The notes below the pieces were generated by a model that was not told where the DNA came from, did no database searches, and was given only the letters and a program-made list of their open reading frames with translations. Positions 33,087 to 53,172 of a stretch of DNA of 64,000 nt are shown here, in pieces. How positions within the stretch are numbered: the stretch's first letter is position 1; every line of letters begins with the position of its first letter. The stretch is from Nitrospira sp. (lineage in GTDB: Bacteria; Nitrospirota; Nitrospiria; Nitrospirales; Nitrospiraceae): positions 1,542,501-1,606,500 of the forward strand of contig JARFXP010000001.1 of assembly GCA_029194675.1 (NCBI GenBank). Reading direction: 5' to 3'. A program made the position numbers and the translations under genes.

Positions 33087-34098
33087 TATGCTTATTACTT
33101 TGACTCCGGTGACAGTAATTCGATGAGCGCAATGGGGCTTTTCTGTGCCGAGATGCCCAGCAACGTTTGAAAGGCGGCCATCGGGGTCTGACGCCGGTTG
33201 AAACGAACGACAAACTCGTCCCAATAGCTCGGAAGATGCTTGGGCTCGACCCCGTGATGCGTGCCGTTCAGCCACGCCTTGAGATTGCTGACTACGCGGT
33301 GGATGTGGGGAAACCGTCGCGCGGCTTGGCGAGGAGCACCGACGACGCGGATGTGATGGTGGTACTCTTCCAGGGCGGACTCCGAGTACCCACGCCAACC
33401 GGCGGTTCTTACTTGGCTGCCGCCTTCCACGTGTTGCGTCAGAAACGCCCCAGCGCCATCCCGCTGGCATCGGCACTCGGCGCAAGCCGGAGCCGGCCTG
33501 CGCGTTCTCGGCGCTTGCCCTGGACATCGGTGTAGACCAGCACTTCCACCGCACCGGCCACCAGGCTCTTCTGCGCTCCTGCGGCAACGCCACGGCCCTT
33601 CTTGCCTTTTACCGATCCTCCGATGTGTGTTTCATCCACCGCCACAAGCCCCGAGAGTTTTGTGCGGTTGTCATTGACCATCCCCTTGCGCAGCCGATGG
33701 AGCAGGTGCCAGGCGTGCTGATACCCGCCAATCCCAAGCTGTCGCTGTAGTTGCACGGCGCTGATTCCAGGAGTGTGAGTCGCAACCAAGTAGGCTGCCC
33801 AGAACCACGCTTGGATCGGGACGTGCGAACGATGCATGATCGTACCCGTGGGCGGTGCAGTTTGACGCCCGCACTGTGGGCATTCGAAGACATAGCGCGT
33901 CTGATTCAGCCACGCCTTTTTACCCGAGCATGTCGGGCAAACGAAGCCATCGGGCCACCGGCATTGAACCAGGTATTCACGGCAGGCTTCGGAGGTCGAG
34001 AATCGCTGACGGAACTCCCGCATGTTCTGAGGATAACCCAGTCGCCCCATTGCTGGAGAGTGCCCAAAGCGCTAACCGGAGTCAAAGTAATAAGCATA
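33087..34098 (-). mobile_element. IS1595-type insertion sequence (1012 bp)
   Basis: Perfect 24-bp terminal inverted repeats lie at 33087-33110 and 34075-34098, beginning TATGCTTATTACTTTGACTC. They are flanked by an 8-bp target duplication AAGGACGG (33079-33086 and 34099-34106). Eight bases is the usual duplication of the IS1595 family. The element interrupts the histidine kinase ATPase domain. Intact ends with a preserved duplication indicate a fairly recent insertion. Confidence 0.92.
33095..34050 (-). pseudogene. IS1595-family transposase, frameshifted
   Basis: The N-terminal frame (33439-34050) has a zinc ribbon (CPTCSGKKAW, CPQCGRQT) and the DDE domain start LVAVDETHIGGSVKGKKGRG. Near 33440-33480 the frame changes, and 33095-33430 continues as LTQHVEGGSQVRTAGW, IHRVVSNLKAWLNGTHHGV and YWDEFVVRFNRR, the usual C-terminal end. 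The shift separates the catalytic residues, so the copy is inactive unless programmed frameshifting occurs. Confidence 0.85.
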
Positions 34099-37479: not shown

Positions 37480-38925
37480 CTATTTACCGCCCGGGGCCGC
37501 CACCTTGGGCGCAAACATCTCAAACACACTCGGTGACCGTTCAATATAATCCGGCGGGAAGAAGTTAAAGCGCCGCCACAGTTCGTACCAAAGAGGGACA
37601 CGATTCATGACTACCCAACCCAATACCTTTGTACCCTGCCTCACCTGAGCCTGATCCGGCCATGGCTGAGGATCATCTGGGTCAGGAACGACCCAGAACC
37701 GATAATTTCCTTTTCCATCATCGATCTGGTCAACCACCTTGATGACCCCCCCACGAGTACCAGCCATCAATGAAGGCCAGGCAGGCAATGGGATGGCCGG
37801 CACTCCAAAAAACAAGATTCGCACCTTCCGTCCAGGTTTCAAAAGGGGAGAATCCAACCCTTCGGCCGTCATTTCGATGGCTGGATCAGTGGCGAGGGGA
37901 GAAATAGTGACCAAATTGTCTCCCTGTCTGACGGTTTCGTTGACACCGACCCTAGCCATTTTGACCACAGTTCCGTCCATAGGCGCTATGAGTTTAGCGG
38001 CCTCGATTCGTTGTTGGACCCCCTGTTGCCGATACGAGATATCCGCTAATCCCTCCGTCGCCTTAGCGGCTTCAGCCACAGCATTATCACGCTGTGCGAT
38101 TGCCTCCATGAGCCGTTGCTGCACATCCGCCGTGATTTGATCACGCCCGAAGCTTAAGGCGGACCGAGCCTGCTCAGCCGCCAACAAACCGGCCTGTGCT
38201 GCCTGCAAACCAGCTTTTGTGCCGATTTCGGTCTGAATCGTTAGCTCAAGTTCCCGTTGTGAAACGAGCCCGTCTCTGACAAGTTGTCGATGCCGGTCGA
38301 CATTGAGTTGCGCCGTGACGACATCGATCTTAAGTTGTTCAACCTTCTGTTGTGCCTCTCGCACTTTGTTGTCAGCTTCCACCACTCTGGCCTCGGCCGA
38401 TGGCACGGCAGCCTGGACCAGCTTTTTCATCTCCCCAATCCTCTTATTCAGCTGATCCGCTCTGGCTAGTGCTGCCTGGCGTGTTTGTTCTAGAGCTACC
38501 TTACGCTGTTCGAAGAGAGGAAGGATCTCAGGGGCCATAAAGGTCGGGTCATAGTCCTCGAGTTCGCCGATGAGGTCGCCTTTCTTAACCTTAACTCCTT
38601 CAAAAATATGCCAAGCCTTGACACGGCCTGTAATCCGAGACTCGATCTTCTGCGGTCGGTCGTAGGGAGTATAAGCAGAAACTTTCCCATTCGCAGAGAT
38701 GGTCTGCGTCCATGGCACGAACTCAAGGACGATCAGAAAAAGCAGGAGGATTGTCAGAATTGCACGAGATGCCGTGAACATTCCTCCTGGAATCTGTACC
38801 GCTTCCCAGCATGGCAACTTGGCCAATGTGGGGCCTTGTTCGATGGTGATCGCTTCCAAGCCCACCCCTCGCTTGACCAACGCACGTTCCCCGCTGCCTT
38901 CGACACCGCGATCTAGGCTAGCCAT
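37480..38925 (-). CDS. HlyD-family membrane fusion protein
   Basis: A 481-residue periplasmic adaptor: one N-terminal membrane helix (ILTILLLFLIVLEFVPW), a lipoyl half-motif (GRVKAWHIFEGVKVKKGDLIGEL), a long coiled coil (about residues 125-310), the returning lipoyl half (AAKLIAPMDGTVVKMARVGVNETVRQGD) and a beta-barrel. The start follows GGAGGCTCC. It lies 45 bases downstream of the ABC exporter gene and should bridge it to one of the TolC proteins. Confidence 0.9.
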   Translation of the reverse strand: MASLDRGVEGSGERALVKRGVGLEAITIEQGPTLAKLPCWEAVQIPGGMFTASRAILTILLLFLIVLEFVPWTQTISANGKVSAYTPYDRPQKIESRITGRVKAWHIFEGVKVKKGDLIGELEDYDPTFMAPEILPLFEQRKVALEQTRQAALARADQLNKRIGEMKKLVQAAVPSAEARVVEADNKVREAQQKVEQLKIDVVTAQLNVDRHRQLVRDGLVSQRELELTIQTEIGTKAGLQAAQAGLLAAEQARSALSFGRDQITADVQQRLMEAIAQRDNAVAEAAKATEGLADISYRQQGVQQRIEAAKLIAPMDGTVVKMARVGVNETVRQGDNLVTISPLATDPAIEMTAEGLDSPLLKPGRKVRILFFGVPAIPLPAWPSLMAGTRGGVIKVVDQIDDGKGNYRFWVVPDPDDPQPWPDQAQVRQGTKVLGWVVMNRVPLWYELWRRFNFFPPDYIERSPSVFEMFAPKVAAPGGK

Positions 38926-38970
38926 GGAGCCTCCATTCATTTACCGGTGTTGATGTACCATTCCATCCGT

Positions 38971-40653
38971 TTACGCATGAGCATGATGCAGCATAATGCG
39001 ACGATCGGCATGATCCGTAAGATTGGGATCCGTCGACACAAAGATCACAGACCATGCTTCATCTTTAGAACACAGCCGACGCAGCACACGCTCGCGCAAC
39101 GATGGCTCAAGCGAGTGAATCAAGCCGTCAAATATGAGAACTTGTGGACGTCCTAGAATCGCCCTGGCCAGGAGAATCTGCACAATGTGGGTCGGCGAAA
39201 GGGATTCTCCCAGCGAGGAGATCTCGGACTTCACGCCGCGTGGCAAGCCCTCGACATCTTCCTCAAGTTCGGTGAATCGGAGAGCCCAGTTGAGATCATC
39301 ATAGGTGACATAGGATCGTCCCATGACGATATTTTCTTCGATCGTTCCCTTGATCAACGACAACTGAGAGTCGATCATGACACTCCGGGTTTGATTGATG
39401 GCATTAGGCTCAATATACCGAAGATCAACGCCATTGTACTGAACGACACCATTGGTCGGATTCTCGAGGCCGCCCAGCACTCTGGCCAAAGCGGTTTTTG
39501 CTCCCGTGGTTCGCGCGTAGATACCGAGCTTCTCGCTTGGTGCTACTTCCAGGTTGAAGCCATCGAAGACGGACACTCCCCCGTGAATCAAACTCACGCC
39601 TTTGCAGGTGACGCGGACCCCTTGAGTCAAATGCTTGGGAAGTGCCACGGCAGATTCGGGGGCGACGTAATCTTGCTCTTGGCTGAAGACCTCATCGAGG
39701 TGTTTCAGAGACGTGAAGAAATAGTACACATACCCCATGTTTTTGATGAGGGAATCGAAATTGAGGATGAGTGCGCCGATAACCGCCTGAACAGCGACCA
39801 ACTGCCCCAGCGTCATCTGCCCCGATGCCATGAGCCAGGCTGAGAGGGCGAGGGCTCCAGATTGTGCAACTGCTTGCCCCGCTACCGAACCAATATATTG
39901 CCGCACGAGAACAACAAATCGGGCTTTTCGAGTTTCGACATACCGATTGACAAGCTCATTCGTCTTCTGGATGAGAAATGGGCGGCTGTCGGTGGCCTTC
40001 AACTGCAATGAATTCCGCGAAATATCTTGAATCCAATGGAAGACGTCGTACTTCGCATGAGACATCGCGAGGGTTGTCTTCAGTGCACCACGAGAGAGCA
40101 CGAAAAACGTGATCCCAAACCCGGCCATGAGCAGAAGGTTGTACACGAGAAAATAGGGATGGTAGACGATCAGCACGATCATGCCGACCGTCCCACCCAC
40201 CACGACGTTCATCAGGTCGATGAGCAGAGTGGACAAAGCCCGTTGCATAAAGACCGTTTCGATAAAGTAGTTCGAAAGCTCATGTTGCGACCCTCTAAAT
40301 CGATTCCGGGGAAGCTGCTCAACCATCGCGACCGAGACTCTTGCAAAGAGTCGGCGTTGCAAGACGTCCACCGCGTAGAAATGGAAGGTCTTGAACAGGC
40401 CGACGAACAACAGCACTGCCAGCATAATGCCGGTCAGAGTCCAAATCATGACCGGCTGAACCGCGTAGGAAAATGTACTGACCAACTCCTGCACGGTCAA
40501 CGGGATGATAAGAGAAAAGAACCCAACGGCTAGGGCATAAGAAAAAATCAGACTCATGATTTTTTTCTCAGCCCGCATCGCCACGGAAAGCTGCTTCATC
40601 AGCGCCTCGAACAGGCCTTGATAACTTTCGCCCTGAGGTTCTTTCATGAGCAC
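38971..40653 (-). CDS. ABC exporter with degenerate ATPase domain
   Basis: A 560-residue type I exporter: a transmembrane domain with about six helices (residues 30-310) and a nucleotide-binding domain (about 345-555). The ATPase motifs are altered: Walker A reads ARTTGAKTA, the LSGGQ signature reads LSPTH, Walker B reads VLIFDG with glycine for the catalytic glutamate, and the switch histidine is replaced (IFVSTDP). ATP hydrolysis by a homodimer is doubtful, so it may need a partner or work differently. Operon with HlyD. Confidence 0.85.
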   Translation of the reverse strand: MLMKEPQGESYQGLFEALMKQLSVAMRAEKKIMSLIFSYALAVGFFSLIIPLTVQELVSTFSYAVQPVMIWTLTGIMLAVLLFVGLFKTFHFYAVDVLQRRLFARVSVAMVEQLPRNRFRGSQHELSNYFIETVFMQRALSTLLIDLMNVVVGGTVGMIVLIVYHPYFLVYNLLLMAGFGITFFVLSRGALKTTLAMSHAKYDVFHWIQDISRNSLQLKATDSRPFLIQKTNELVNRYVETRKARFVVLVRQYIGSVAGQAVAQSGALALSAWLMASGQMTLGQLVAVQAVIGALILNFDSLIKNMGYVYYFFTSLKHLDEVFSQEQDYVAPESAVALPKHLTQGVRVTCKGVSLIHGGVSVFDGFNLEVAPSEKLGIYARTTGAKTALARVLGGLENPTNGVVQYNGVDLRYIEPNAINQTRSVMIDSQLSLIKGTIEENIVMGRSYVTYDDLNWALRFTELEEDVEGLPRGVKSEISSLGESLSPTHIVQILLARAILGRPQVLIFDGLIHSLEPSLRERVLRRLCSKDEAWSVIFVSTDPNLTDHADRRIMLHHAHA

Positions 40654-40786: not shown

Positions 40787-42382
40787 TCAGTCACGGCCAG
40801 GCAGCTTGCGACCGGACGAACCGGCGGAGATCATAGGATCGCCGTACTTGACAAGCACACTTTCAGGCAGTGGTTTCGACAGCGCCGCTCTCGCCCAGAG
40901 CATACCTCCCCTGGCCACGGCGTAGTCGGCCTGCGCTCGGTACAGCTCATAGGCCGCTGCGATCACCGCACGCTCTCGTATGTTGACGAAGAGCACACTC
41001 GTTGCTCCCATATTAAACCGGGCTCGTTCGCCTTCTTCTAAGGTCTTGGCCAAGCGCAGGGCTTCGGTTGCGGCTTTCACTCGGTCTCGGGCCCGCACAA
41101 TCGCCGAGAGCCAGTTATCAACGTCGACCGTAACTTGTCGCTCCGTGTATGCGATTTTCCATGTCAATCGTTCCTGCTGCGCTTCTGCGTGAAGGACCTT
41201 CCCTCGGGCACCCCGATTGAACAACGGCATACTGAGGAGCGCACCCAGTCGGTAGGAGAACCCTCCAAGGTAGTAGATAGCGCCCGTCACCGGCCCCCCC
41301 TCAACCGTTAGTTTTGGAAGCAGACTATTCTTCGCCAGTTTCAGTTCGATATTGTTCAATTTGAATTCAATGTAGAGATCGCGCACTTCTGGGCGATCCT
41401 CCGTGGCTTCCACCTTGTAGGCCGCCACATCCTCTTCGCTCGGCAACGGCGTTTCCCCCTGAAATTCTGGGGCCCATTCAGGGCGAGGTGTCACAGGTTG
41501 GCCGTCTTCCCAGAGAAATAGCGCAAGCTTATATTGCTCATACTCGACCTTCCGTTGCGCGGCAATGGCAGCCTCTCGACGCTGCTGAACTTCTTCTCGG
41601 GCTTCGACCACGTCGATCGGAGCGACCGCGCCGGCTTTGGCTCTCCCCTCAACCATGCGATAGCGCTCTTCCGCGACGGCCAGCGCACGCTTCACCACAT
41701 CGGCTTGTTTGACGGCAACCTGCCAATCCCAGTATTGAACGGCGGCAGCGAGATAGAGATCTTGCCGTTTCTGGGCCACCTTGACCTCGGCTTGCGGCCC
41801 GGCGAGCTCCGCCTGTTGGAACCCGGCATACTGTTCGTTGACCATGAATCCCCGCAGGAGATTGAAGGATCCGCCCATGATCAACACTTGCTGCGGATAG
41901 AACAGTTGCATGTCTTGCGGGATCCCCACCCCGGGACTTATTGGGCCACTATCTGGTACGCCGATGCCGCTCTGGCCATTGATAACACCTCTATCCCCGA
42001 AGCCGTTACGGATACCGAGCATCAGCTCGAACCCATAGGGGTGCCCGACCTTGAGAAAGGTATCGTTATAGCCAGCATTCATGATATTCCTGCCAAAAAC
42101 GTTCGTCAGATCATACGTTTCAAACCGGTCCCACTCGAGCTCGTTCCGAACCTTCGGCTCCCACGCACCCAACGCTTTCATGATTTTCGCCCGAGCCTGC
42201 GCCCGCTCGAGTCCGGTGGCCCGGAGCAGCGGATGGGTCAACTCGATCCTGGCGAACAGCTCTTCAATGGTCAGGGGAGCGGTGCGAGTCGACTGAGCCT
42301 GCAGGGCACTCGAGTCGATCACCGATTCCGCCAGCGCGGTCGCCGGCACAATCATCAACGAGCACAGCAAGAGAAGGATCAA
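40787..42382 (-). CDS. TolC-family outer-membrane efflux protein 1
   Basis: A 531-residue TolC-type channel with a signal peptide (LLLLCSLMIVPATALA), then two OEP repeats rich in coiled coil (VKVAQKRQDLYLAAAVQYWDW; FNMGATSVLFVNIRERAVIAA). The start is TTG at 42382, placed after AAAGGAGCATCCTTCC exactly as the ATG starts of its two paralogues upstream. It is the most diverged of the three. It presumably forms the outer-membrane exit for the HlyD/ABC pair downstream. Confidence 0.88.
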   Translation of the reverse strand: MILLLLCSLMIVPATALAESVIDSSALQAQSTRTAPLTIEELFARIELTHPLLRATGLERAQARAKIMKALGAWEPKVRNELEWDRFETYDLTNVFGRNIMNAGYNDTFLKVGHPYGFELMLGIRNGFGDRGVINGQSGIGVPDSGPISPGVGIPQDMQLFYPQQVLIMGGSFNLLRGFMVNEQYAGFQQAELAGPQAEVKVAQKRQDLYLAAAVQYWDWQVAVKQADVVKRALAVAEERYRMVEGRAKAGAVAPIDVVEAREEVQQRREAAIAAQRKVEYEQYKLALFLWEDGQPVTPRPEWAPEFQGETPLPSEEDVAAYKVEATEDRPEVRDLYIEFKLNNIELKLAKNSLLPKLTVEGGPVTGAIYYLGGFSYRLGALLSMPLFNRGARGKVLHAEAQQERLTWKIAYTERQVTVDVDNWLSAIVRARDRVKAATEALRLAKTLEEGERARFNMGATSVLFVNIRERAVIAAAYELYRAQADYAVARGGMLWARAALSKPLPESVLVKYGDPMISAGSSGRKLPGRD

Positions 42383-42407
42383 GGAAGGATGCTCCTTTGT
42401 TGCTGAA

Positions 42408-43952
42408 TCAATCGCGTCCCGGTTGTTTGTAGCCGTTCATGCCGGCCGCCGTCAGAGGGTTCCCGTACTTGGCCAACTCGCTTTCGGGCCACGGCTTCGA
42501 CAAGACTCCCCTGGCCCACAACATACCTCCACGCGCCACCGCGTAGTCGGCCTGCGCCCGATACAGCTGGTACGCCGATTCCACCACGTTGCGCTCACGG
42601 AGGTTCACAAAGAGGACGGTGGTCACGCCCATATTGAATCGGGTCCGTTCGCCCTCCTCCAGCGTCTTCGCCAACCGCAGCGCTTGCGTCGCAACCTTCA
42701 CCCGGTCTCTAGCCCGCACTTGGGCCGAGAGCCAGTTGTCCACGTCGACGCTGACTTGTTGCTCGGTGTACAGCTGTTTCAGGACCAATTGTTGCTGGTC
42801 CGCTTCTGCGGTCATGACCTTCCCACGCCCTTCCCGCTGGAACAGCGGCATCGCAAACCTCGACTGGAACGTATACCCGACTCCCACAAGCCAGTCCGCG
42901 GCCTCTGGATGTAGCCCCCCCCCAACATCCAACTGTGGGAGCAGGTAGTTCTTGGCGAGCTTGATGTCGATATTGTTCATCTTGGCTTCGATGTAGAGGT
43001 CCCTCACTTCCGGCCGAGCTTCTTTCGCCTCCACTTTATAGGCCGCGACCTCGTCGTTGGTCGGGAGCGGCGTTTCGCCCTGGAATTCCGGCGCCCACTC
43101 CGGTCGCGGCGTCACCGGCTCGCCGTTCTCCCAGAGATAGAGGGACAGTTTGTACTGCTCATACTCCACCTTCCGCTGGGCGGCAATGGCTGCCTCTCGC
43201 CGAATCTGAACCTCTTTGTTCACCTCGATCACATCGAGCGGCGTCGCCTGCCCGCCCTTGGCCAACCCTTCGACCTGGACCAAGCGCTCGTCGGCAACGG
43301 CCAAGGCGCGCTTCACAATCTCGGCTTGTTTCACGGCGACCTGCCAATCCCAGTACTGCACGGCACCGGCGAGATAGAGGTCTTGCCGTTCGTGCGCCAC
43401 CGCGATCTCCGCCTGCGGCCCCGCGAGTTCGGCCTTTTGAAACTCGGCGTACTCGTCGTTGATCATGAGGCCTCGCAGCAGCTTGAACGACCCACCGACG
43501 TTCAGTTGCTGCATAGAATAGAACATCTGGGCATCAGGGATGGCAGCATGGATGAACATCGTACGGTCATCCCCAAAGCCGTTGCGGAGCCCGCCAAAGA
43601 CCCGGAAGCCCCAGGGATGCCCGACCTCGAGCTCGGTGTCTACAAATCCCCCCGTATTCTCATCGAGGGTGCTCAGGAAATTCCAAGTCTGAAAACGAGC
43701 GACCTGCATATTTGCCTTGAACGCCGGTTCCCAGGCCCCGAGCGCCTTCAGGATCTTCGCCCGGGCTTTCATCCGTTCAACCCCGGCCGCCCGAAGCAGC
43801 GGATGCGTCAACTCGATACGGGCGAGCACTTCGTTGATGGTCAGGAGCTCGGTGCGGGCGGACTGCGCTTTCAACACGCTTGAATCGCGCACCGGTTCCG
43901 CCAGTGTCGTCACGGGAAGCCAGATCAGAATCACGAGTAATAGAGCGGCCAT
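42408..43952 (-). CDS. TolC-family outer-membrane efflux protein 2
   Basis: A 514-residue TolC-type protein with signal peptide (LLLVILIWLPVTTLA-E) and two OEP repeats. It shares with copy 3 a stretch of about 170 bases identical at the DNA level (43005-43175 and 44573-44743). The start is ATG at 43952 after AAGGAGCATCCTTCG, so the longer upstream frame is rejected. Same strand and short gaps (about 25 bases) show one transcript for all three. Confidence 0.9.
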   Translation of the reverse strand: MAALLLVILIWLPVTTLAEPVRDSSVLKAQSARTELLTINEVLARIELTHPLLRAAGVERMKARAKILKALGAWEPAFKANMQVARFQTWNFLSTLDENTGGFVDTELEVGHPWGFRVFGGLRNGFGDDRTMFIHAAIPDAQMFYSMQQLNVGGSFKLLRGLMINDEYAEFQKAELAGPQAEIAVAHERQDLYLAGAVQYWDWQVAVKQAEIVKRALAVADERLVQVEGLAKGGQATPLDVIEVNKEVQIRREAAIAAQRKVEYEQYKLSLYLWENGEPVTPRPEWAPEFQGETPLPTNDEVAAYKVEAKEARPEVRDLYIEAKMNNIDIKLAKNYLLPQLDVGGGLHPEAADWLVGVGYTFQSRFAMPLFQREGRGKVMTAEADQQQLVLKQLYTEQQVSVDVDNWLSAQVRARDRVKVATQALRLAKTLEEGERTRFNMGVTTVLFVNLRERNVVESAYQLYRAQADYAVARGGMLWARGVLSKPWPESELAKYGNPLTAAGMNGYKQPGRD

Positions 43953-43975
43953 CGAAGGATGCTCCTTGTGCCGGA

Positions 43976-45529
43976 TTAATCGCGGCCCGGTTGTTTGTAC
44001 CCGTTCATGCCCGCCGCCGTCATCGGATTTCCATACTTCGCCAAGGACGCCGTCGGCCAGGGCTGCGACAACGCGCCCCTTGCCCACAGCATCCCTCCAC
44101 GGGCCACCGCATAGTCGGCCTGCGCCCGATACAGCTGGTACGCCGATGCCACCACGTTGCGCTCACGGAGGTTCACGAATAACACGGTGGTGGCCCCCAG
44201 GTTAAACCTCGTGCGCTCACCTTCTTCCAACGTCTTGGCCAACCGCAGGGCTTCCGTCGCCACCGTCACCCGGTCTCTGGCGCGCACTTGGGCCGAGAGC
44301 CAGTTATCCACGTCGAAGTTGACTTGTTGCTCGGCATAGCGCTGTTTCAACGCCCATTGTTGCTGGCTCGTTTCCGCGGCCATGACCTTCCCACGCGCTT
44401 CCCGGTTGAACAGCGGCATCTCAGCGTGTATGCCGACCCGATACCCGATTCCGATAATCCAGTCCGTGACACCAGAGGGCGGCCCTCCTTCAAGATCCAA
44501 CGCCGGGAGCAGTTTGTTTTTGGCGAGCTTGATGTCGATATTGTTCAGCTTGGCTTCGAGGTAGAGATCCCGCACTTCCGGCCGAGCTTCTTTCGCCTCC
44601 ACTTTATAGGCCGCGACCTCGTCGTTGGTCGGGAGCGGCGTTTCGCCCTGGAATTCCGGCGCCCACTCCGGTCGCGGCGTCACCGGCTCGCCGTTCTCCC
44701 AGAGATAGAGGGACAGTTTGTACTGCTCATACTCCACCTTCCGTTGCGCGGTGATGGCTGCCTCTTGCCGCTTCTGAACCTCTTGGCTCGCCTCGATCAC
44801 ATCGAGCGGCGCGACCTTCCCGCCCTTGGCCAACCCTTCGACCTGGACCAAGCGCTCCTCGGCAACGGCCAAGGCGCGCTTCACTATCTCGGCTTGTTTC
44901 ACGGCGACCTGCCAATCCCAGTACTCCACGGCGCCGGCGAGATAGAGGTCCTGCCGTTTCTGCGCCACCTTGATCTCCGCTTGCGACCCCGCGAGTTCGG
45001 CCTGTTGAAACTGGGCGTTCTCCTCATTCATCATGAGGCCTCGCAGCAGATGGAACGACCCGCCGAAGTAGAATTGCTGCTGAGGATAGAAGAGCAGCGC
45101 ATCAGCGGGGAAAGCAGTGAAGTTGAGAGTGCCGCGATCCCCGATGCCGCTGCGGAACCCGCCAGCGACCGTGAAGCCCCAGGGATGCCCGACCTCGAGG
45201 ATGGTGTCGGAAAATCCCCCCGTTTGTCCATCAAATGTACGGGGAGACGTCGTGAGATTCCAAGTTTGATAACGTTCCATCTTTGTAATGTTCTTGAACG
45301 TCGGTTCCCAGGCCGCGAGCGCCTTCAGGATCTTGGCCCGGGCCTTTACTCGCTCGGCCCCCATCGCCCGAAGCAGCGGATGCGTCAACTCGATGCGAGC
45401 CAGCACTTCATCGATGGTCAGTGGAGCGGTGCGAGTCGACTGGGCCTGCACGGTCCTCGAGTCGATCGCCGGTTCCGCCAGTGCGGTCATTGGCAGGAGA
45501 GTCACAATGGCCAATACCAGAGCAATCAT
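43976..45529 (-). CDS. TolC-family outer-membrane efflux protein 3
   Basis: A 517-residue TolC-type protein, first of the three in transcription order. It has a signal peptide (MIALVLAIVTLLPMTALA-E) and OEP repeats with VKARAKILKALAAWEP and RARDRVTVATEALRLAKTLEEGERTRFNLG. The start is ATG at 45529 after AAAGGAGCATCCCTC. Divergent from the NhaR-type regulator at 45672, which probably controls this operon from the 142-base gap. Confidence 0.9.
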   Translation of the reverse strand: MIALVLAIVTLLPMTALAEPAIDSRTVQAQSTRTAPLTIDEVLARIELTHPLLRAMGAERVKARAKILKALAAWEPTFKNITKMERYQTWNLTTSPRTFDGQTGGFSDTILEVGHPWGFTVAGGFRSGIGDRGTLNFTAFPADALLFYPQQQFYFGGSFHLLRGLMMNEENAQFQQAELAGSQAEIKVAQKRQDLYLAGAVEYWDWQVAVKQAEIVKRALAVAEERLVQVEGLAKGGKVAPLDVIEASQEVQKRQEAAITAQRKVEYEQYKLSLYLWENGEPVTPRPEWAPEFQGETPLPTNDEVAAYKVEAKEARPEVRDLYLEAKLNNIDIKLAKNKLLPALDLEGGPPSGVTDWIIGIGYRVGIHAEMPLFNREARGKVMAAETSQQQWALKQRYAEQQVNFDVDNWLSAQVRARDRVTVATEALRLAKTLEEGERTRFNLGATTVLFVNLRERNVVASAYQLYRAQADYAVARGGMLWARGALSQPWPTASLAKYGNPMTAAGMNGYKQPGRD

Positions 45530-45671
45530 GAGGGATGCTCCTTTCACATCGGGTGACGGACGGCGCCCACAGTAGCAATCTCCCGTTCGCTTTTCAAAAT
45601 AGATAAAACGGATTGGAGTTATCGGCAAATCCGATGTATAGTGTCATCTCTCATTCGAGGCCTAGGACCAT

Positions 45672-46571
45672 ATGGATTGGCTGAACTATCACCATCTTTT
45701 GTATTTCTGGTCCGTCGCCAAGCACGGGACCGTGACGAAAGCCTGCGAAGAACTCCGTCTGGCGCAACCCACGATCAGCGGACAGATCCACCTCTTGGAA
45801 CATACGTTGGGAGAAAAGTTATTCGTACGAACCGGCCGCCGCCTGGCGCTGACGGAGATGGGCCAGCTTGTGTTCAAGTACGCGGAGGACATCTTCGCGA
45901 CCGGTCAAGAGCTGATGAACACGGTCAAAGGGCATGCGAACGGACAACCGGCTCGGTTGATCGTCGGCATCGCGGACGCAGTCCCAAAACCGCTGGCAAC
46001 CCGACTTCTCAAATCAGCGCTGAAACTCTATCGGCCGATTCGCTTAATCTGTCAGGAAGATACACTTGGCCAACTGTTGACCGATCTGTCATGCCATCGA
46101 TTGGATCTGATCATCGCTGACACACCTGCCCCATCAAGCAGCAAAGAACACACCTACAGTCATCCTTTGGGAGAATCGGGAGTATCGCTGTTTGCGACGG
46201 CCAAGCTGACGGCACAATATCGTCGGGGTTTTCCGCAGTCGTTAAGGGGTGCACCCATCCTCCTCCCCGCATCCAATACCGGGCTTCGACGACTGCTCGA
46301 CCAATGGCTGATCAACCATGGGCTGCATCCGAACATTGTAGGTGAGTTCGATGACAGTGCGACCTTAAAGGCATTCGGCCAGGACGGATATGGGATCTTT
46401 CCCGGTGTGTCCGTGATGGAGAAGGAGATCTGCCGCCAATATCGGGTGCAGGTGGTTGGGCAACTGGAGGTTCTCACACAGCATTTCTACGCGATCACTG
46501 TAGAGAGACGGCTTAAGCATCCGGTCGTCCTTACTCTCGTCCGGACTGCGCGGCAAGAACTGCTTGGCTGA
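45672..46571 (+). CDS. LysR-family regulator (NhaR type)
   Basis: A 299-residue transcriptional regulator. The winged helix-turn-helix is at residues 1-65 (MDWLNYHHLLYFWSVAKHGTVTKAC, LAQPTISGQIHLLE). The opening WLNYHHLLYFW is the hallmark of NhaR-like members, which in enterobacteria respond to sodium. The effector domain follows (LIVGIADAVPKPLA, FDDSATLKAFGQDGYGIFP). The gene is divergent from the TolC operon. Inducer unknown here. Confidence 0.9.
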   Translation: MDWLNYHHLLYFWSVAKHGTVTKACEELRLAQPTISGQIHLLEHTLGEKLFVRTGRRLALTEMGQLVFKYAEDIFATGQELMNTVKGHANGQPARLIVGIADAVPKPLATRLLKSALKLYRPIRLICQEDTLGQLLTDLSCHRLDLIIADTPAPSSSKEHTYSHPLGESGVSLFATAKLTAQYRRGFPQSLRGAPILLPASNTGLRRLLDQWLINHGLHPNIVGEFDDSATLKAFGQDGYGIFPGVSVMEKEICRQYRVQVVGQLEVLTQHFYAITVERRLKHPVVLTLVRTARQELLG

Positions 46572-46585
46572 CGCCATTCACGACC

Positions 46586-47314
46586 TCACGATGAGACCCA
46601 ACCTGCGTGATACCGTCCCACGGCTTGCATAAGTTGTTCGCGCTCTTGACTCGTGAGTTCCTTCCATTCACCGACGCCTAGCCCTTCGGCGGTAATATGC
46701 ATAATCCTCGTTCGGTGCAGCTTGGTCACGCGATAGCCAAGCGCCTGGCACATACGCCTGATCTGCCGGTTCCGTCCCTCCGTTAAGATAATGCGAAACT
46801 GATCACGCCCGGCGCGTCTCGTCCGACAGGGCTTCGTCCTGCTTCCAAGAATAACCACGCCCCGTGACAGCTGATGCAAAAACGATTGGTCAAGCGGATG
46901 ATCGACCTGCACCAGGTACTCTCGTTCGTGCCCGAATTCGGTGCGGAGGATTTCGTTCACGATGTCGCCGTCGTTCGTCAGCAAGATCAGACCGGATGAA
47001 TCTTTATCGAGGCGCCCGATCGGGAAGATCCGTTCCGGATGCCCAATCTCAGCGATAATATTCCGGGGGATATGCGATTCGCTCGTTGTCGTGACGCCGA
47101 CCGGCTTATGATACTTGATATAGAGATTCGCTTTGCCCCAGGGGATCACACAGCCTTCCCGGGCGATGATGTCATTGGACGATACCTGGTCGCCGAGCTT
47201 CGCCACCCGGCCGTTGATCGTGATAACGCCCGACTCAATGAGACCGTCTGCCTCGCGCCGGGAACAGATCCCATGTTCCGTGAAGAACTTATTGATGCGA
47301 ATGGATTGCGCCAC
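46586..47314 (-). CDS. rluF: RluF/RluB-type rRNA pseudouridine synthase
   Basis: A 242-residue enzyme. An S4 RNA-binding domain (INKFFTEHGICSRREADGLIESG) is followed by the RsuA-type catalytic domain: HKPVGVTTT, FPIGRLDKDSSGLILLTNDGD with the catalytic aspartate, VILGSRTKPCRTRR, and ILTEGRNRQIRRMC. The sequence order resembles RluF, which acts on 23S rRNA U2604, more than RluB, but target choice is uncertain. Stand-alone gene, tail-to-tail with the regulator. Confidence 0.85.
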   Translation of the reverse strand: MAQSIRINKFFTEHGICSRREADGLIESGVITINGRVAKLGDQVSSNDIIAREGCVIPWGKANLYIKYHKPVGVTTTSESHIPRNIIAEIGHPERIFPIGRLDKDSSGLILLTNDGDIVNEILRTEFGHEREYLVQVDHPLDQSFLHQLSRGVVILGSRTKPCRTRRAGRDQFRIILTEGRNRQIRRMCQALGYRVTKLHRTRIMHITAEGLGVGEWKELTSQEREQLMQAVGRYHAGWVSS

Positions 47315-47350
47315 GTCAAGACGGGAGCGATGGACGTGTGATGCCGACCG

Positions 47351-48283
47351 TTAATACACGCGCCGGCCAGCTTTGATGCGACCCAGTATACGATAGATCA
47401 AACGCGCGATGGAAAATTGCGGCGCCACGAATCCTTCGATAGGAGCGATCTCGCTGACATCCATGCCGACGATACCAGGTCCGTTGGCCAGTGCCGTGAT
47501 GAGATTGAGGGTATCATACCACCCGAGGCCACCCGGCTCGGGAGTGCCCAAGGCGGGAACGATCGACGCATCCAGCCCATCGCAGTCGAATGTCAGGTAC
47601 ACGGGCGTTCGGCAGGCCGCAACCACGTCAGGTATCCAGCTCGATGCTTTGCCTTCGTACGGGCCGGATGGATCCAGGATGGTGGCTGCAAAAAACGTCT
47701 TGATGCGGGCCGTGGCATCGATACGAGCGACCTCTTCTCGGCTGATCGACCGAATACCCACTTGTACCAAGGATAAGCCGTCTTCCACCACCCGCGCCAT
47801 GACGCTGGCATGGCTGAACGGATTGCCTTGATAGGCATCCCGGAGATCTCCATGGGCATCGATCTGCACAACGGTCATCCGCGGATATCGTTTCGCATGG
47901 GCTCGAATCGCTCCCAATGCCCCAGTGTGTTCGCCCGTCAGCATAATTACAAACCGTCCGGTTCCTACGTGCGGTGAGACGAACGCTTCGATCGCGTCGA
48001 CGGCCGCGCGATCGACATTCCCGTTGAGATCTAACGGTGAAGCCGTTGCGATTCCGCCCCATTCTCGAAATGGTTCACATCCGAGTTGTTCGTCGTAGAA
48101 TTCGACCTGGGCGGAAGCTTCAAGGATAGCCGAGGGGCCACGGTCCGACCCACGGATATAACTGGAACTGTGTTCGTAGGGAACCGGCAGCACATAGACA
48201 CCCGCGTGGTCCGGGTGACACCAGGGCTCGTCGATCCCCAAAAAGTTGTGATTCGGCCCTTCCCAACCGACGGGAAGCGTCAT
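47351..48283 (-). CDS. speB: Agmatinase (ureohydrolase)
   Basis: A 310-residue ureohydrolase that converts agmatine to putrescine and urea. The binuclear manganese site is visible in GEHTGALG, QIDAHGDLRDAYQGNPFSHAS and LTFDCDGLDASIVPALGTPEPGG. VLPVPYEHSSSY is the usual N-terminal strand. It lies 66 bases after the arginine decarboxylase on the same strand, which completes the arginine to agmatine to putrescine route. Confidence 0.93.
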   Translation of the reverse strand: MTLPVGWEGPNHNFLGIDEPWCHPDHAGVYVLPVPYEHSSSYIRGSDRGPSAILEASAQVEFYDEQLGCEPFREWGGIATASPLDLNGNVDRAAVDAIEAFVSPHVGTGRFVIMLTGEHTGALGAIRAHAKRYPRMTVVQIDAHGDLRDAYQGNPFSHASVMARVVEDGLSLVQVGIRSISREEVARIDATARIKTFFAATILDPSGPYEGKASSWIPDVVAACRTPVYLTFDCDGLDASIVPALGTPEPGGLGWYDTLNLITALANGPGIVGMDVSEIAPIEGFVAPQFSIARLIYRILGRIKAGRRVY

Positions 48284-48349
48284 GGGCGATCTTCCCTCGG
48301 CGGGACCAACGGCTGAGACGATATGAATACAGCCAAGACCGATAAGCCT

Positions 48350-48919
48350 CTACTTGCGAGAACGGGCGGGCACATTCTCCGGCGGGATGAAAACAGCCAG
48401 CGCGATGACCGTGGTCCACTTACCCTTTTTCCCGACGGCTGATTGGGTGATGTTCAGGGTTCTCACGATTTTTCCACCCATTTTAAAGACCTGCTCGCGC
48501 TCTTTCCAGGCCACGTTCGGATCGAACTCGACACCCAAGGTCGTCGCAAGCATCTGCGCTGCGAGATCTTCCGTATACTCTCCGGTCTCCTCATCTGTTT
48601 CACCATGGGCATGGTGTTCCGATAAATAGCCGTATGTGCCCCGGTCTGTGGGCTTCGCAAGGCCGACCGACGCCGAGATGAGCCGGTTCCGTTCATTCGT
48701 TTCCGAACGCGCCATGACACAAAACGTGATTTCACCCGGTTTCAGCAGCTTCTCTCCGCGCTTCCGAGGGATGATTTTACAATGGGGAGGAAGGATGGAC
48801 GACACGCTGACGAGGTTGCAGTAGGCCACACCGGCGCTGCGCAGCGCCTCTTCGAAGGAGGCCAACTTTTCCTTGTGGACCCCCACACCTCGCGTTAAAA
48901 ACATATGCGTAGGTACCAT
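48350..48919 (-). CDS. pdaD: Pyruvoyl-dependent arginine decarboxylase
   Basis: A 189-residue proenzyme. Self-cleavage is expected at the serine of [11 protein letters not shown] (about residues 40-42), which gives a beta chain and an alpha chain with an N-terminal pyruvoyl group. [27 protein letters not shown] and [15 protein letters not shown] are typical PvlArgDC motifs. It decarboxylates arginine to agmatine and is followed by speB. Common in archaea and some bacterial phyla. Confidence 0.93.
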
Positions 48920-49073
48920 CGTCTCCCCTTTCGTCAGGTAATCGGCCTGCCTGGTTGTTCGGAGTTATTTGGCGACGTGTTCCAAAGCGGCCAGCTGGAC
49001 AAAACATCGGACCAAATCAATGACCGTATCGGGCGCCTGTTGTAGCAAGATTGGACCGGCTTCGCAATATCTG

Positions 49074-50528
49074 CTAGACACTTTTTTCGGGGAAGTGGTG
49101 TGGGTCTTTCAGATTCATGATGAGCATCCGCGGCTCCGTCATATCCTCCATCGCGGCACGAACGCCCTCCCGTCCTAACCCGGAATCTTTCACGCCGCCG
49201 TAGGGCATATGGTCGGCCCGGAACGTCGGAATCTCGTTTGCCAACAGGGCTCCGACCTCCACGTGGCGAAAGGCGTAAAAGATCTTGTTGATGTCCTGCG
49301 TAAAGATGCCGGCCTGCAATCCGTAGTCCGATTGATTGAGCAGCGCCACGGCCTCGCTGAGCTGCCGATACGGCGTGACGGTGACAACCGGCCCGAACAC
49401 CTCCTTGCAGGAAACCTTCATGTCGGGCTTCACATTCGACAGCACCGTGGCCTCAACAAGCGATCCCATCCGCTTCCCGCCCAACAGGACGCGCGCTCCG
49501 TCCGCGACAGCTTCGCCGATCCAGTTCTCCACCCGCTGAGCGGCTGCCTGATCGATGAGGGGACCGACGCTCGTCGTCTCATCGGCAGGATCTCCCACTT
49601 TCAGCCGAGCGACATGCATCAGCAACTTGGTCGTAAACACATCGGCTACCGAATGGTGGACGAACACCCGCTGCACTGAAATGCAGGTCTGACCGGCATA
49701 CCCAAATCCACCTACCGCGCAACGCTGAGCGACAAGCTCAAGATCGGCATCGGGCTCGATGATCACGCCTGCGTTGCCCCCGAGTTCGAGCGTGACTTTT
49801 TTCTTTCCACACTTGGCCTTCAACGTCCATCCCACCGACGCGCTGCCGGTGAAACTGAGCAATTTGAATCGTGGATCGACCACCATCCGCTCGGCGAGAA
49901 GGTTATCGCACGGCACCACATTGAGCCCACCCGGAGGAACTCCCGCCTCTAAGGCGATCTCTCCCAGGAGCAGCGCGGTCAACGGCGTTTGAGGGGCAGG
50001 TTTGATGAGAATCGGGTTGCCGGACGCGAGGGCCGGCGCCACCTTGTGCGCCACGAGATTGAGCGGAAAGTTGAACGGTGTGATGCCGAGAATCGGACCG
50101 ATCGGAAAACGTCGAAGCAGGCCAAGATGCGTATCAGAGCCGGGGGTCCAATCGAGCGGTACCACCTCGCCCGGAATCCGTCGTGCCTCTTCAGCTGCCA
50201 CCGTGAAGGTTTGGATTGCCCGGCTGACTTCCCGCTTCGCGTCGGTGATCGGCTTACCGGCCTCGGCTGTGATGGTCTGTGCGAACTCCTCGCGACGTCG
50301 ATAGAGCAACGCCGCGATCTGTTGGAGCATGTTGTATCGAGCATGTCCCGGAAGCTGCCCCATGGTAGCAGTCGCACTGGAAGCTGACGCGATGGCCTGT
50401 TCGACATCGGACTCGGTCGCTTGCGCAACCTGAGCCACGAGCTTCCCGGTGAACGGATCTACGACCGAGGCCGAGAGTTCGCCTGACTTCCATTGGCCAT
50501 GAACGAGGAACGGACGGGATGCCTGCAC
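49074..50528 (-). CDS. NAD(P)-dependent aldehyde dehydrogenase
   Basis: A 484-residue ALDH. GPILGITPFNFPLNLVAHKV is the cofactor-binding region, FTGSASVG the nucleotide loop, VTLELGGNAG has the general-base glutamate, and GFGYAGQTCISVQRV the catalytic cysteine. The open frame extends upstream into the zinc-ribbon gene without a good start. The GTG at 50528 gives the normal family length. The substrate is unclear. The neighbourhood would allow a polyamine-derived aldehyde, but this is inference. Confidence 0.88.
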   Translation of the reverse strand: MQASRPFLVHGQWKSGELSASVVDPFTGKLVAQVAQATESDVEQAIASASSATATMGQLPGHARYNMLQQIAALLYRRREEFAQTITAEAGKPITDAKREVSRAIQTFTVAAEEARRIPGEVVPLDWTPGSDTHLGLLRRFPIGPILGITPFNFPLNLVAHKVAPALASGNPILIKPAPQTPLTALLLGEIALEAGVPPGGLNVVPCDNLLAERMVVDPRFKLLSFTGSASVGWTLKAKCGKKKVTLELGGNAGVIIEPDADLELVAQRCAVGGFGYAGQTCISVQRVFVHHSVADVFTTKLLMHVARLKVGDPADETTSVGPLIDQAAAQRVENWIGEAVADGARVLLGGKRMGSLVEATVLSNVKPDMKVSCKEVFGPVVTVTPYRQLSEAVALLNQSDYGLQAGIFTQDINKIFYAFRHVEVGALLANEIPTFRADHMPYGGVKDSGLGREGVRAAMEDMTEPRMLIMNLKDPHHFPEKSV

Positions 50529-50563
50529 TGGAAGGCTCGCTGGAGTCTCTGATGAGGTTGGTA

Positions 50564-50836
50564 TTAGTCCGCCGCTTCGACCGACGCAGCGGCTTCGGCG
50601 GCAGGTTGAACAACCAAGGCTGCTTCTTGTGCGGCAACGGCTTTGGCAATTAATTCTTCCGTACCCCAATCGCGGATCGCCTCCAAGGTAAATCCCTCGT
50701 AGGTCGACACACCGTGACAAGACGGACAGTCCGGCATCGGAACTTTTCTGTAGAAGACTTCTGTGAGACACGACATACAGACCCAGAAGTCGTCATCACG
50801 GTGGGAGACGGGCCAGAAGGATTGCATCGAAGTCAT
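50564..50836 (-). CDS. Small zinc-ribbon protein (90 aa)
   Basis: A 90-residue protein with one CxxC knuckle at WVCMSC and another at PDCPSCHG, about 20 residues apart, which should bind zinc. The C-terminal third is alanine- and glutamate-rich (helical). The start follows TAGGGTGTCCAT. No named family. It is the first gene before the aldehyde dehydrogenase, with about 35 bases between them. Confidence 0.75.
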   Translation of the reverse strand: MTSMQSFWPVSHRDDDFWVCMSCLTEVFYRKVPMPDCPSCHGVSTYEGFTLEAIRDWGTEELIAKAVAAQEAALVVQPAAEAAASVEAAD

Positions 50837-50935
50837 ATGGACACCCTACCTTAGATTATACCAAGAGAACTATCGTACCTACGTGCCGATGTCAACATGA
50901 AGCGCGAAGACACACTCCGCTCCGGCGCAATTCTG

Positions 50936-51577
50936 CTATTTTTTGTCGCTCGCCAGAAGTCGATCGATTTCTTCTGCGAACATCTCGAATGGGAATGCTC
51001 CGGGGATCGCAACCGCCGGCTCCTTTTCCGTCGGCTCGGCGGCCGTCCGCACAAGGATGAACCCAGGGGTTCCGTGAAACCCCCACTGATTGGCTTCCTG
51101 GCGATCTTCGAAAATCAGCTTCGTATACCGCCCGTCGTTCATACACCGTTCAAATGCAGGTCGATCCAAGCTCAATGCCGCGGCATGTCGTAAATACACC
51201 TGCTTGTCCAGCTGTCCCCCTTCGGAAAACAACCGATCATGCATCGCCCAATACTGACCTTGGGCACCGGCACATCGCGCCGCCACCGCCGCATCCAGCC
51301 CAGCCCCTTGGTCGCCACGCGGAAAATCCCGGTAAACAAATCGCACTTTCCCAGTATCGACGTACTGAGCCTGAATCCGTGGCCACGTACGCTTGAAAAA
51401 TTTCAAGCAATAGCCGCACGTGAAATCAGAGTATTCGATCAAGGTCAGAGGTGCATTGGCCTGTCCTCGCATTCGCACATCGGCTTCGGATGCATTTCCG
51501 CCGAAGACGGAGGACGACCAGAGGAGGCCGCTATAAACCATCAGCTGAACCCACCGTTGTCCAGTCGTCCAGTTCAT
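50936..51577 (-). CDS. DsbA-like thiol-disulfide protein
   Basis: A 213-residue exported thioredoxin-fold protein. An N-terminal signal segment (LMVYSGLLWSSSVFGG) precedes APLTLIEYSDFTCGYCLKFF with the CxxC active site CGYC. An inserted helical domain follows, and FHGTPGFIL holds the cis-proline. This resembles DsbA/BDSF thioredoxin_4 proteins that oxidise or reduce periplasmic disulfides. Its start overlaps the stop of the DHS-like gene by four bases. Confidence 0.87.
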   Translation of the reverse strand: MNWTTGQRWVQLMVYSGLLWSSSVFGGNASEADVRMRGQANAPLTLIEYSDFTCGYCLKFFKRTWPRIQAQYVDTGKVRFVYRDFPRGDQGAGLDAAVAARCAGAQGQYWAMHDRLFSEGGQLDKQVYLRHAAALSLDRPAFERCMNDGRYTKLIFEDRQEANQWGFHGTPGFILVRTAAEPTEKEPAVAIPGAFPFEMFAEEIDRLLASDKK

Positions 51578-52680
51578 GAACGGCGACTCACACCAGCTCG
51601 CTTCTTTTCGAGAAGCCCCATCATCAACAATGGCCAGACGACCGTCGCATCGCTCAATACTTCAGCGAATCGCCCACCATCCTTCGGTGCCACAAATTTC
51701 CCCCAAGAAAGTCCTTCTTGATACGTACAGCCGCTGAGCCCCCCCCAGTAGTCCGGCTCGGGGCAAATTCTCACCCCATAGTGAAATCGAGGGGGCTTCA
51801 CGTTCAGGCCCAACCGAAGATTACCGATTTCAATATACGGACCGACCTGTTGCGCCCAGTTCCGTGGAACACCTCCTCCGATCGTGAAAATTCCAAGTCG
51901 TTTAGCGGAGAGGACATGGTCGGCATAGCTGTTGAGATCGAGGTAGGGATTGAATGACGGACAGGATTGATGGATCGTTCGTAAAATGTCCAGATCTCTC
52001 CCCTGCCCTGCCTGAGATCGGGCTCGATCGACCTCACGAGCCATCGCCCACGTTCCCATGTCCAGTCCCACTTCCGAATCAGTGAACGCCGGGATATAGA
52101 CCGGTACCTTCTTCAAGTAGGCGCTCTTGAGAATTCCGTCGCCGTCTATTTCTTCCGCCAACGTTTTTCCCAGCTCCCTCGTGAGGACTTCCGATGAAAG
52201 CGGCCGATCATGATCGAGGCGCTTCAAGGTGTGCGCAACGACGTGCTCGACATAATTCAAATTCGCTTCCATCTCGAGCGTGTCGTAGACGCGATTGTAC
52301 CCTTTGCGAAAGAGCTCTTCGTCGCTCATCGACGGATCGTGTCGATAATGCGTCTTGCCGACCGACTCACTGAGGCCATGGGCCATCAACGCCCCGGTCG
52401 AGACGATGCATTGCACCATTCCTTCGTCGATCATCTTCGTGATGATCTTGCCCATCTTGGCGATCGTCATTGCGCCGGACAACGTCAGCACGACCTGGCA
52501 GTCAGGGTCCTCGATCATCGCCCAGAGCACATCGAACGCCTTGCCGACATGCCGCCCTCCGAACGCCGTCCTGCCCATGGCCTCAAGCAAATCACTGAAC
52601 GAGGTGATCTTGTCGGGATCAAGCGGTTCGAGCGCTTCCAATCCGTCTTTTGCGCCGTCACGAAATTCGCGTGGGTACAT
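51574..52680 (-). CDS. Deoxyhypusine synthase-like protein
   Basis: A 368-residue member of the deoxyhypusine synthase family. VLTLSGAMTIAKMGKII, CIVSTGALMAHGL, VPVYIPAFTDSEVG, GIFTIGGGVPRNWAQQ and EGLSWGKF, whose lysine matches the catalytic lysine of DHS, are present. Bacteria lack the eIF5A substrate, so bacterial members probably make homospermidine or another polyamine by aminobutyl transfer. This suits the nearby putrescine pathway. The ATG at 52680 after GAGGATCGC is preferred to the longer frame. Confidence 0.88.
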   Translation of the reverse strand: MYPREFRDGAKDGLEALEPLDPDKITSFSDLLEAMGRTAFGGRHVGKAFDVLWAMIEDPDCQVVLTLSGAMTIAKMGKIITKMIDEGMVQCIVSTGALMAHGLSESVGKTHYRHDPSMSDEELFRKGYNRVYDTLEMEANLNYVEHVVAHTLKRLDHDRPLSSEVLTRELGKTLAEEIDGDGILKSAYLKKVPVYIPAFTDSEVGLDMGTWAMAREVDRARSQAGQGRDLDILRTIHQSCPSFNPYLDLNSYADHVLSAKRLGIFTIGGGVPRNWAQQVGPYIEIGNLRLGLNVKPPRFHYGVRICPEPDYWGGLSGCTYQEGLSWGKFVAPKDGGRFAEVLSDATVVWPLLMMGLLEKKRAGVSRRS

Positions 52681-53172
52681 GCGATCCTCTGAGAAGTTCT
52701 CAAGTGTGCATTTGTTTATACACAACCAAGAATAGAGGCGTCAATGAAAGGATCCCACGTGTGAAAGACCGTGCAGAGTCATAGAGCTTTCGCGAGCGGC
52801 CTTTTCGGATAACTCGCACTCGAAGTGGCGTAGCGAATTGAACGGTTGGCCGCAGACTGCAGCATCAAAAAGTGGATCGCTGGAGTGGCTCCTGGTCGGG
52901 CGAGCCTTGCATTGGGAATGAATAACTCCTGGAGATGTTTGCCCGTCCGTCTCAATCAAGAGGGGGAAGGCACGAGCAATCTTGGTGTGGAGCATGAAGC
53001 CAGTGGGTTGAAGACTCTATCCGGCCGCGTTAGTTACGATAAGCGTCAAAAAGAGGGACCGGCCACATACAAAGTGCGGTATCAAAAACTGAAGGCGCTG
53101 GAGGCGTTTATCCGCCCGCTCAATGAAGAGAGGCTTCGCCTGAATAGCGGGCGGTCCACACGAAGTGCGGTG
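52681..53172. other. Non-coding flank of the tRNA fragment
   Basis: No gene is supported. A plus-strand frame across 52846-53274 runs through the tRNA remnant and has no ribosome site, so it is treated as chance. Confidence 0.5.

Follow-up and report, generated by a model that had tools for sequence, protein, structure and literature searches.

What powers a tripartite exporter whose ATPase domain has lost the residues of its ATP site? In the textbook view ABC exporters are pumps driven by ATP, and the nucleotide-binding domains (NBDs) are taken to power tripartite ABC systems. In a 64,000-nucleotide stretch of DNA from the nitrite-oxidising bacterium Nitrospira sp. (contig JARFXP010000001.1 of assembly GCA_029194675.1; hereafter the window), a first-pass annotation had pointed to an ABC exporter gene with degenerate ATPase motifs, lying beside HlyD and TolC genes that looked intact, and had left it unclear how the complex is powered.

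The window gene and its operon

The reading frame opens with GTG, with an ATG two codons further in. Aligned with L002-L004, canonical exporters from its own genome that keep their motifs, the window protein has no functional ATP site, as judged by motif comparison at Walker A, LSGGQ, the Walker B Glu and the H-loop His. Walker A retains its Lys and none of the three P-loop glycines in place; in Walker B (LIFDG, 506-510) the Asp is kept and Gly510 replaces the catalytic Glu; and the H-loop His is replaced by Thr. The first-pass annotation had reported the Walker A sequence, LSPTH at the signature position, the change of Glu to Gly and the missing His, and the alignment bears it out in every detail. 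Pfam still matches the NBD to ABC_tran (E 4e-8) and does not recognise the membrane domain, and neither Pfam nor NCBIfam offers a family-level name for the protein. Its best NCBIfam matches are type I secretion system (T1SS) and bacteriocin exporters, all far under cut-off, the highest, to a bacteriocin exporter model, scoring 114.2 bits (cut-off 853.3) and that to the LssB model 105.2 bits (cut-off 693.1).

Features of the window operon and of DabA/DabB genes near family members elsewhere
Feature	Position	Strand	Remarks
HlyD-family periplasmic adaptor	37480..38940	-	30 bp downstream of ABC gene; Pfam
ABC-exporter-like protein, membrane domain and pseudo-NBD	38971..40653	-	560 aa
Degenerate NBD, residues 345-555	38989..39621	-	
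H-loop remnant STDP, residues 540-543	39025..39036	-	alignment
Walker B remnant QVLIFDG, residues 504-510	39124..39144	-	alignment
Signature remnant LSPTH, residues 485-489	39187..39201	-	alignment
Walker A remnant ARTTGAKTA, residues 380-388	39490..39516	-	alignment
Membrane domain, residues 20-320	39694..40596	-	elbow helix and six membrane-domain helices in model
TolC-family outer membrane channel, copy 3	40787..42382	-	Pfam
TolC-family outer membrane channel, copy 2	42408..44087	-	start probably later than listed
TolC-family outer membrane channel, copy 1	43976..45628	-	Pfam
Divergent LysR-family regulator	45672..46571	+	adjacency to operon conserved in window's clade
DabA/DabB near family gene, L116	5495-11728		
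DabA/DabB near family gene, L117	3-6279		
DabA/DabB near family gene, L109	13978-17001		
DabA/DabB near family gene, L210	1-3911		Sphingobium pHAL16
DabA/DabB near family gene, Bacteroidota	G551:C1:791680-793902		

An AlphaFold2 monomer (30-sequence alignment; mean pLDDT 73.2, pTM 0.44) and fold matches over residues 14-559 describe a six-helix membrane domain fused to an ABC-fold NBD. Ranked by Z, the whole chain is matched best by HlyB from the HlyB/HlyD complex (8dck; Z 26.4, rmsd 7.4, 534 aligned), and residues 333-559 fit the ATPase domain of TAP1 (2ixg; Z 24.1, rmsd 2.3, 222 aligned). In this model the fold of the NBD appears to be kept and its chemistry gone. SbmA was absent from the 50 matches listed for either fold search, which is no evidence of a difference. 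The window protein thus resembles the T1SS ABC proteins HlyB, PrtD and LssB (as in HlyB-HlyD-TolC) in its HlyD and TolC partners, its membrane domain and its fold. Unlike them, it lacks working ATPase motifs and has no room for a C39-like N-terminal domain; its substrate is not recognised, and its family includes members without an NBD.

The HlyD and TolC reading frames are intact and supported by Pfam, in agreement with the first-pass annotation, and all lie on the strand of the ABC gene, with the three TolC-family frames upstream of it. Across the family, HlyD and TolC genes occur within 6 kb at 114 of 130 loci (135 with at least 4.5 kb of flank, less five canonical outgroups). The other 16 comprise one locus with HlyD only (L254) and 15 with neither, of which 13 are full-length second copies in genomes that have another copy and two are pieces of one broken gene. 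This near-universal linkage lends support to the earlier view that the complex is probably used.

The operon combines one ABC and one HlyD gene with three tandem TolC paralogues (window 40787-45628). Exactly three long TolC copies are present at 29 of the 42 loci examined, and when the copies are sorted by position they form three orthologue groups that are largely separate. Since TolC works as a trimer, it is possible that the paralogues form an obligate heterotrimeric outer-membrane channel.

Several neighbouring genes deserve mention in their own right. Beyond the regulator, positions 46586-52725 carry genes for a pyruvoyl arginine decarboxylase, an arginase-family (agmatinase-like) protein, an aldehyde dehydrogenase, a DsbA-like protein and a deoxyhypusine synthase-like protein; in many Nitrospira genomes the decarboxylase, arginase-family and aldehyde dehydrogenase genes, along with one for a pseudouridine synthase, adjoin the exporter. 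Any link to polyamines is conjecture. An open reading frame with an IS1595 transposase zinc-ribbon domain lies at 33439-34050. In three phyla, DabA genes, some with DabB (an inorganic carbon pump), adjoin the family operon, an arrangement that is rare overall and is accompanied by a LysR gene in L116, L117 and L210. DabA/DabB was considered as a missing partner and rejected: it is nearby in only 1 of 62 Bacteroidota and 3 of 36 Nitrospirota genomes checked, and is therefore no core part. The DabA of the window's own genome is on another contig.

Conservation and selection in Nitrospirota

A gene in which several catalytic motifs are lost could be a decaying pseudogene, and canonical motifs in its orthologues would have made it a local one. 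Strong homologues were found in 39 of the 59 nearest genomes (E <= 1e-25) and, in a phylum-wide draw, in 77 of 295 (E <= 1e-60); a contig search returned 52 loci, most under the name Nitrospira (N. moscoviensis among them, with 60% identity) and some in Bacteroidota (24-28%). Not one of 120 distinct Nitrospirota homologues (full-length, duplicates removed) has an intact Walker A, signature, catalytic Glu or H-loop His. Because these losses are common to all 120, they are beyond chance. The replacements are themselves conserved, with Gly510 in 119 of 120, Asp542 in every one and Pro543 in 117, and Gly510, His513 and Asp542 rank within the 25 most conserved NBD columns.

Selection on the domain is strong. 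Among 22 close homologues, dN/dS is 0.040 for the NBD and 0.069 for the membrane domain (104 of 231 pairs passed the dS filter of 0.1-1.8), compared with 0.067 for the NBD of a canonical control, the orthologues of L004 (237 pairs). Over all Nitrospirota the two domains are equally conserved, with a mean column entropy of 1.18 for the NBD and 1.20 for the membrane domain. With purifying selection of this strength, fixed replacements and a frame that is open in nearly all homologues, we regard pseudogene decay as practically eliminated, and it is almost certain that the gene carries a conserved pseudo-NBD. The first-pass annotation's suggested test in orthologues therefore went against a local pseudogene; fully canonical motifs occur only in distant Bacteroidota, as described below. 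Given that the NBD is kept and strongly selected in Nitrospirota, it must have some role.

Could that role still involve ATP? The NBD might bind or hydrolyse ATP through unusual residues, in a slow or regulatory cycle, a proposal that draws on the predicted intact fold with its TAP1 match, on the purifying selection, and on the retention of Lys386 (103 of 120 Nitrospirota proteins) and, in most, of Asp509. It has to contend with the joint loss of the P-loop glycines, signature, Glu and His, with the substitution of Lys386 by Arg in 15 of 120, and with the disappearance of the whole NBD in two lineages, and we judge it very unlikely. Binding of ATP by a divergent site in the Nitrospirota NBD is not excluded. 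That the protein does not hydrolyse ATP with its own NBD is an inference in which we place considerable confidence.

Graded motif loss and relatives without an NBD

The family extends through Nitrospirota, Bacteroidota and sphingomonads, with HlyD and TolC genes nearly always alongside. In Bacteroidota, the phylum of the genome carrying L088, 62 of 247 genomes have a member (E <= 1e-80). Motif states were called by regular expressions; the listings grew from 89 distinct sequences to 182, and removal of four canonical outgroups and the frameshifted L170 left 177. All four motif tests are passed by only three of these, the Bacteroidota proteins L231, L254 and L255, and three more (L253, L259 and L261) keep the Glu. 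Walker A alone is intact in 41, many Bacteroidota keeping it in full; all four motifs are lost in 125 and all except a weak signature match in one; and four proteins have no NBD. By this motif test, 167 of the 173 NBD-bearing proteins lack the consensus Glu and His.

Members on sphingomonad plasmids (L209, L210, L212 and L293-L295) are likewise degenerate. When plasmids were searched with the bare membrane domain, only 22 records were returned, every one belonging to Bacteroidota or to a sphingomonad-type genus; the membrane domain is thus by itself a marker of the family. Many Bacteroidota members, L231, L253, L254 and L261 among them, carry about 200 extra N-terminal residues, for which Pfam gave no match in the three long members scanned (L213, L231 and L254).

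General relaxation of the NBD was also considered. Among Bacteroidota and allied sequences, NBD identity falls 0.17-0.25 below that of the membrane domain at 40-80% membrane-domain identity (a deficit of about 0.24 at 50-70%), whereas in the canonical control the NBD differs from the membrane domain by +0.02 to +0.05 at 70-90% identity. Relaxation thus holds for these sequences and not for Nitrospirota, where the two domains are conserved alike.

The four proteins without an NBD come from Nitrospirota (L116 in G056, 339 aa; L117 in G054, 348 aa) and Bacteroidota (L242 in G491, 349 aa; L243 in G405, 334 aa). All four genes stop just after the membrane domain, the next gene following about 50 bp after L116 and the L242 stop overlapping the HlyD start, and all four have HlyD and TolC adjacent. 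In a membrane-domain tree of 94 representatives the two pairs fall in different, well supported clades, which makes two independent losses of the NBD, in two phyla.

The segment corresponding to coupling helix 2, whose residues were placed by analogy and not by any measured contact, has changed along with this loss. Between the Nitrospirota NBD-less proteins and their NBD-bearing sisters, identity is 0.12-0.25 in this segment and 0.67-0.77 in the rest of the domain, compared with 0.50-0.67 and 0.61-0.75 for NBD-bearing sister pairs. Bacteroidota follow the same trend (0.08-0.38, rest 0.42-0.52). NBD-bearing pairs overall range from 0.38 to 0.71, except for two distant pairs involving the window protein (0.21 and 0.29). 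Against relatives at 56-60% identity, the window protein scores 0.58 in the segment and 0.57-0.62 elsewhere; since conservation there matches that of the remaining domain, the comparison suggests that its pseudo-NBD still docks on the coupling helices.

A separate gene might supply the missing domain. Queried with the NBD of the sister lineages, the NBD-less genomes yielded no family-type NBD (best 85-97 bits, 28-41% identity), while positive-control genomes that keep the domain gave 444-493 bits. We therefore rejected a separate matching NBD gene, with the reservation that a generic canonical ATPase is not excluded. Because the coupling segment is eroded and no matching NBD lies elsewhere, the loss looks, from these comparisons, both real and old, and looks not to have been compensated by a matching NBD. 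To the extent that sequence can tell, these relatives are the strongest evidence that the membrane domain may work without an NBD.

Source of energy and comparison with other transporters

Nearly all of the family has lost the parts that burn ATP and some members have dropped the NBD, which makes a different source of drive probable. The motif losses with their age and conservation, the selection on the NBD, the gene partners and the two NBD losses can be read from the sequences; how the exporter works is inferred from them. In the mechanism that we propose, the window gene encodes the inner-membrane component of a tripartite HlyD/TolC exporter whose ancestor was a type I-secretion-like ABC exporter. 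Its own NBD would not hydrolyse ATP and would stay docked on the coupling helices, where it would serve structure or gating; transport would rest on the membrane domain, as the NBD-less relatives imply; and an ion (proton) gradient, as in SbmA/BacA, would most likely drive export of an unknown substrate together with HlyD and TolC. With no transport, ATPase or proton-flux data, we consider this reading as a whole to be evenly poised between right and wrong. Its weakest step, the ion gradient, is argued by analogy, and there doubt runs slightly ahead of belief. The earlier statement that it is unclear how the complex is powered still stands.

Heterodimeric exporters offer one comparison. TmrAB, TM287/288, TAP and Pdr5 have changes in the Walker B Glu, H-loop and signature, as the window protein does, and Pdr5 is reported to have one site in which all four motifs are changed (PMC7756269). 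These transporters keep their other site canonical, whereas a window homodimer would have both sites degenerate, because the genome has one family copy (E <= 1e-60). A partner completing one canonical site, the mark of such heterodimers, was not found.

In other Nitrospiraceae genera, tandem pairs of degenerate ABC genes occur (L164-L172 and L203), some copies keeping GKTT in Walker A; in one pair, the member at L170 5983-8478 is frameshifted between membrane domain and NBD, through an assembly error or a real split. The pairs suggest heterodimers. A canonical partner within them was ruled out, since both copies have lost signature, Glu and His and no composite site is canonical.

It remains conceivable that ATP is used in trans, with the degenerate protein and either a canonical ABC half-transporter or some separate ATPase forming a mixed complex. 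Canonical exporters are present elsewhere in the window's genome, the tandem pairs hint at heterodimer formation, and there are precedents for separation: the membrane domain and NBD of YddA can occupy different operons (PMC13316013), and a SecA-like ATPase is proposed for certain HlyD modules (PMC4452313). Those modules occur with SecA_DEAD proteins and no ABC transporter (PMC4452313); they resemble the present system in having HlyD/TolC-type parts without a working ABC ATPase and differ in having no ABC membrane domain. No SecA-like gene was recognised beside the window operon. Nor was a canonical partner seen in the operon, where the partners that accompany the family are HlyD and TolC; the tandem pairs form no canonical composite site, the degenerate half of known heterodimers helps to form one canonical site while nothing usable is left here, and the NBD-less relatives have eroded coupling segments. 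We hold use of ATP in trans to be quite unlikely. As to the second ATPase that the first-pass annotation recommended looking for, the operon shows no canonical partner and the genome a single family copy, and an unlinked canonical partner is not excluded.

The closest precedent for an ion gradient is SbmA, an ABC-type membrane domain without an NBD that is proton-driven, and for SbmA/BacA (SLiPT) an origin from a full-length ABC transporter losing its NBD and coupling helices has been proposed (PMC13316013 for both points). SbmA and BacA are peptide importers, whereas the window family, being linked to HlyD and TolC, is presumably an exporter, and apparently belongs to another ABC lineage (T1SS-like, not YddA-like). 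Where SbmA/BacA lack both NBD and coupling helices, the window protein still has its pseudo-NBD and a coupling segment that is conserved; among its relatives, the four without an NBD have an eroded segment. In the window family, no glutamate ladder is recognised and intermediate states still exist. Pfam gave no SbmA/BacA family match for the window or NBD-less proteins, and no direct alignment with SbmA was made.

Residues that might carry protons give little help. No SbmA-like glutamate ladder was seen to arise with NBD loss, and most of the conserved acidic residues (29, 96, 132, 146, 210 and 300) are present in canonical family members too. Apart from Glu56 and His165, which alone track motif loss, no gained proton ladder was found. 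Glu56 is invariant in Nitrospirota; His165, in a predicted loop between membrane helices, is present in 171 of the 172 degenerate members, in 2 of the 5 whose motifs are mostly intact and in none of the 4 outgroup proteins. Direct signs of proton coupling in these sequences are weak.

The lack of a gained acidic ladder would fit a gated conduit, or a scaffold for HlyD/TolC assembly, in which the substrate moves down its own gradient without active pumping. Such a device would need no energy source, and the pseudo-NBD could serve as its plug or gate. Against this, a full exporter membrane domain is retained with strongly conserved charged residues, and SbmA sets the precedent that such domains can use protons; we think the conduit unlikely.

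Returning to gradient-driven export, we suggest, tentatively and with doubt still outweighing belief, that the family switched from ATP to a gradient with all stages still alive: an intact NBD, Walker A only, a mechanical or gating pseudo-NBD, and a membrane domain on its own, a state reached at least twice. If true, this would be an independent SbmA-like switch within an HlyD/TolC system. That an ABC membrane domain can work without ATP is already known; what appears to be new is the lineage, the HlyD/TolC export setting and the preserved intermediates. In an open-access library, from which most subscription papers are missing, searches turned up no report of the family, which does not prove that none exists.

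Several members are named 'ABC transporter ATP-binding protein' in the databases, and many such annotations in Nitrospirota, Bacteroidota and sphingomonads may be wrong names. With its graded states, the family is a natural series in which to study how primary transport becomes secondary, and it offers a defined way to test the part that an NBD plays other than hydrolysing ATP. Retention of HlyD and TolC in a family whose ATPase is disabled or discarded would show the membrane domain to be able, by itself, to drive or permit export.
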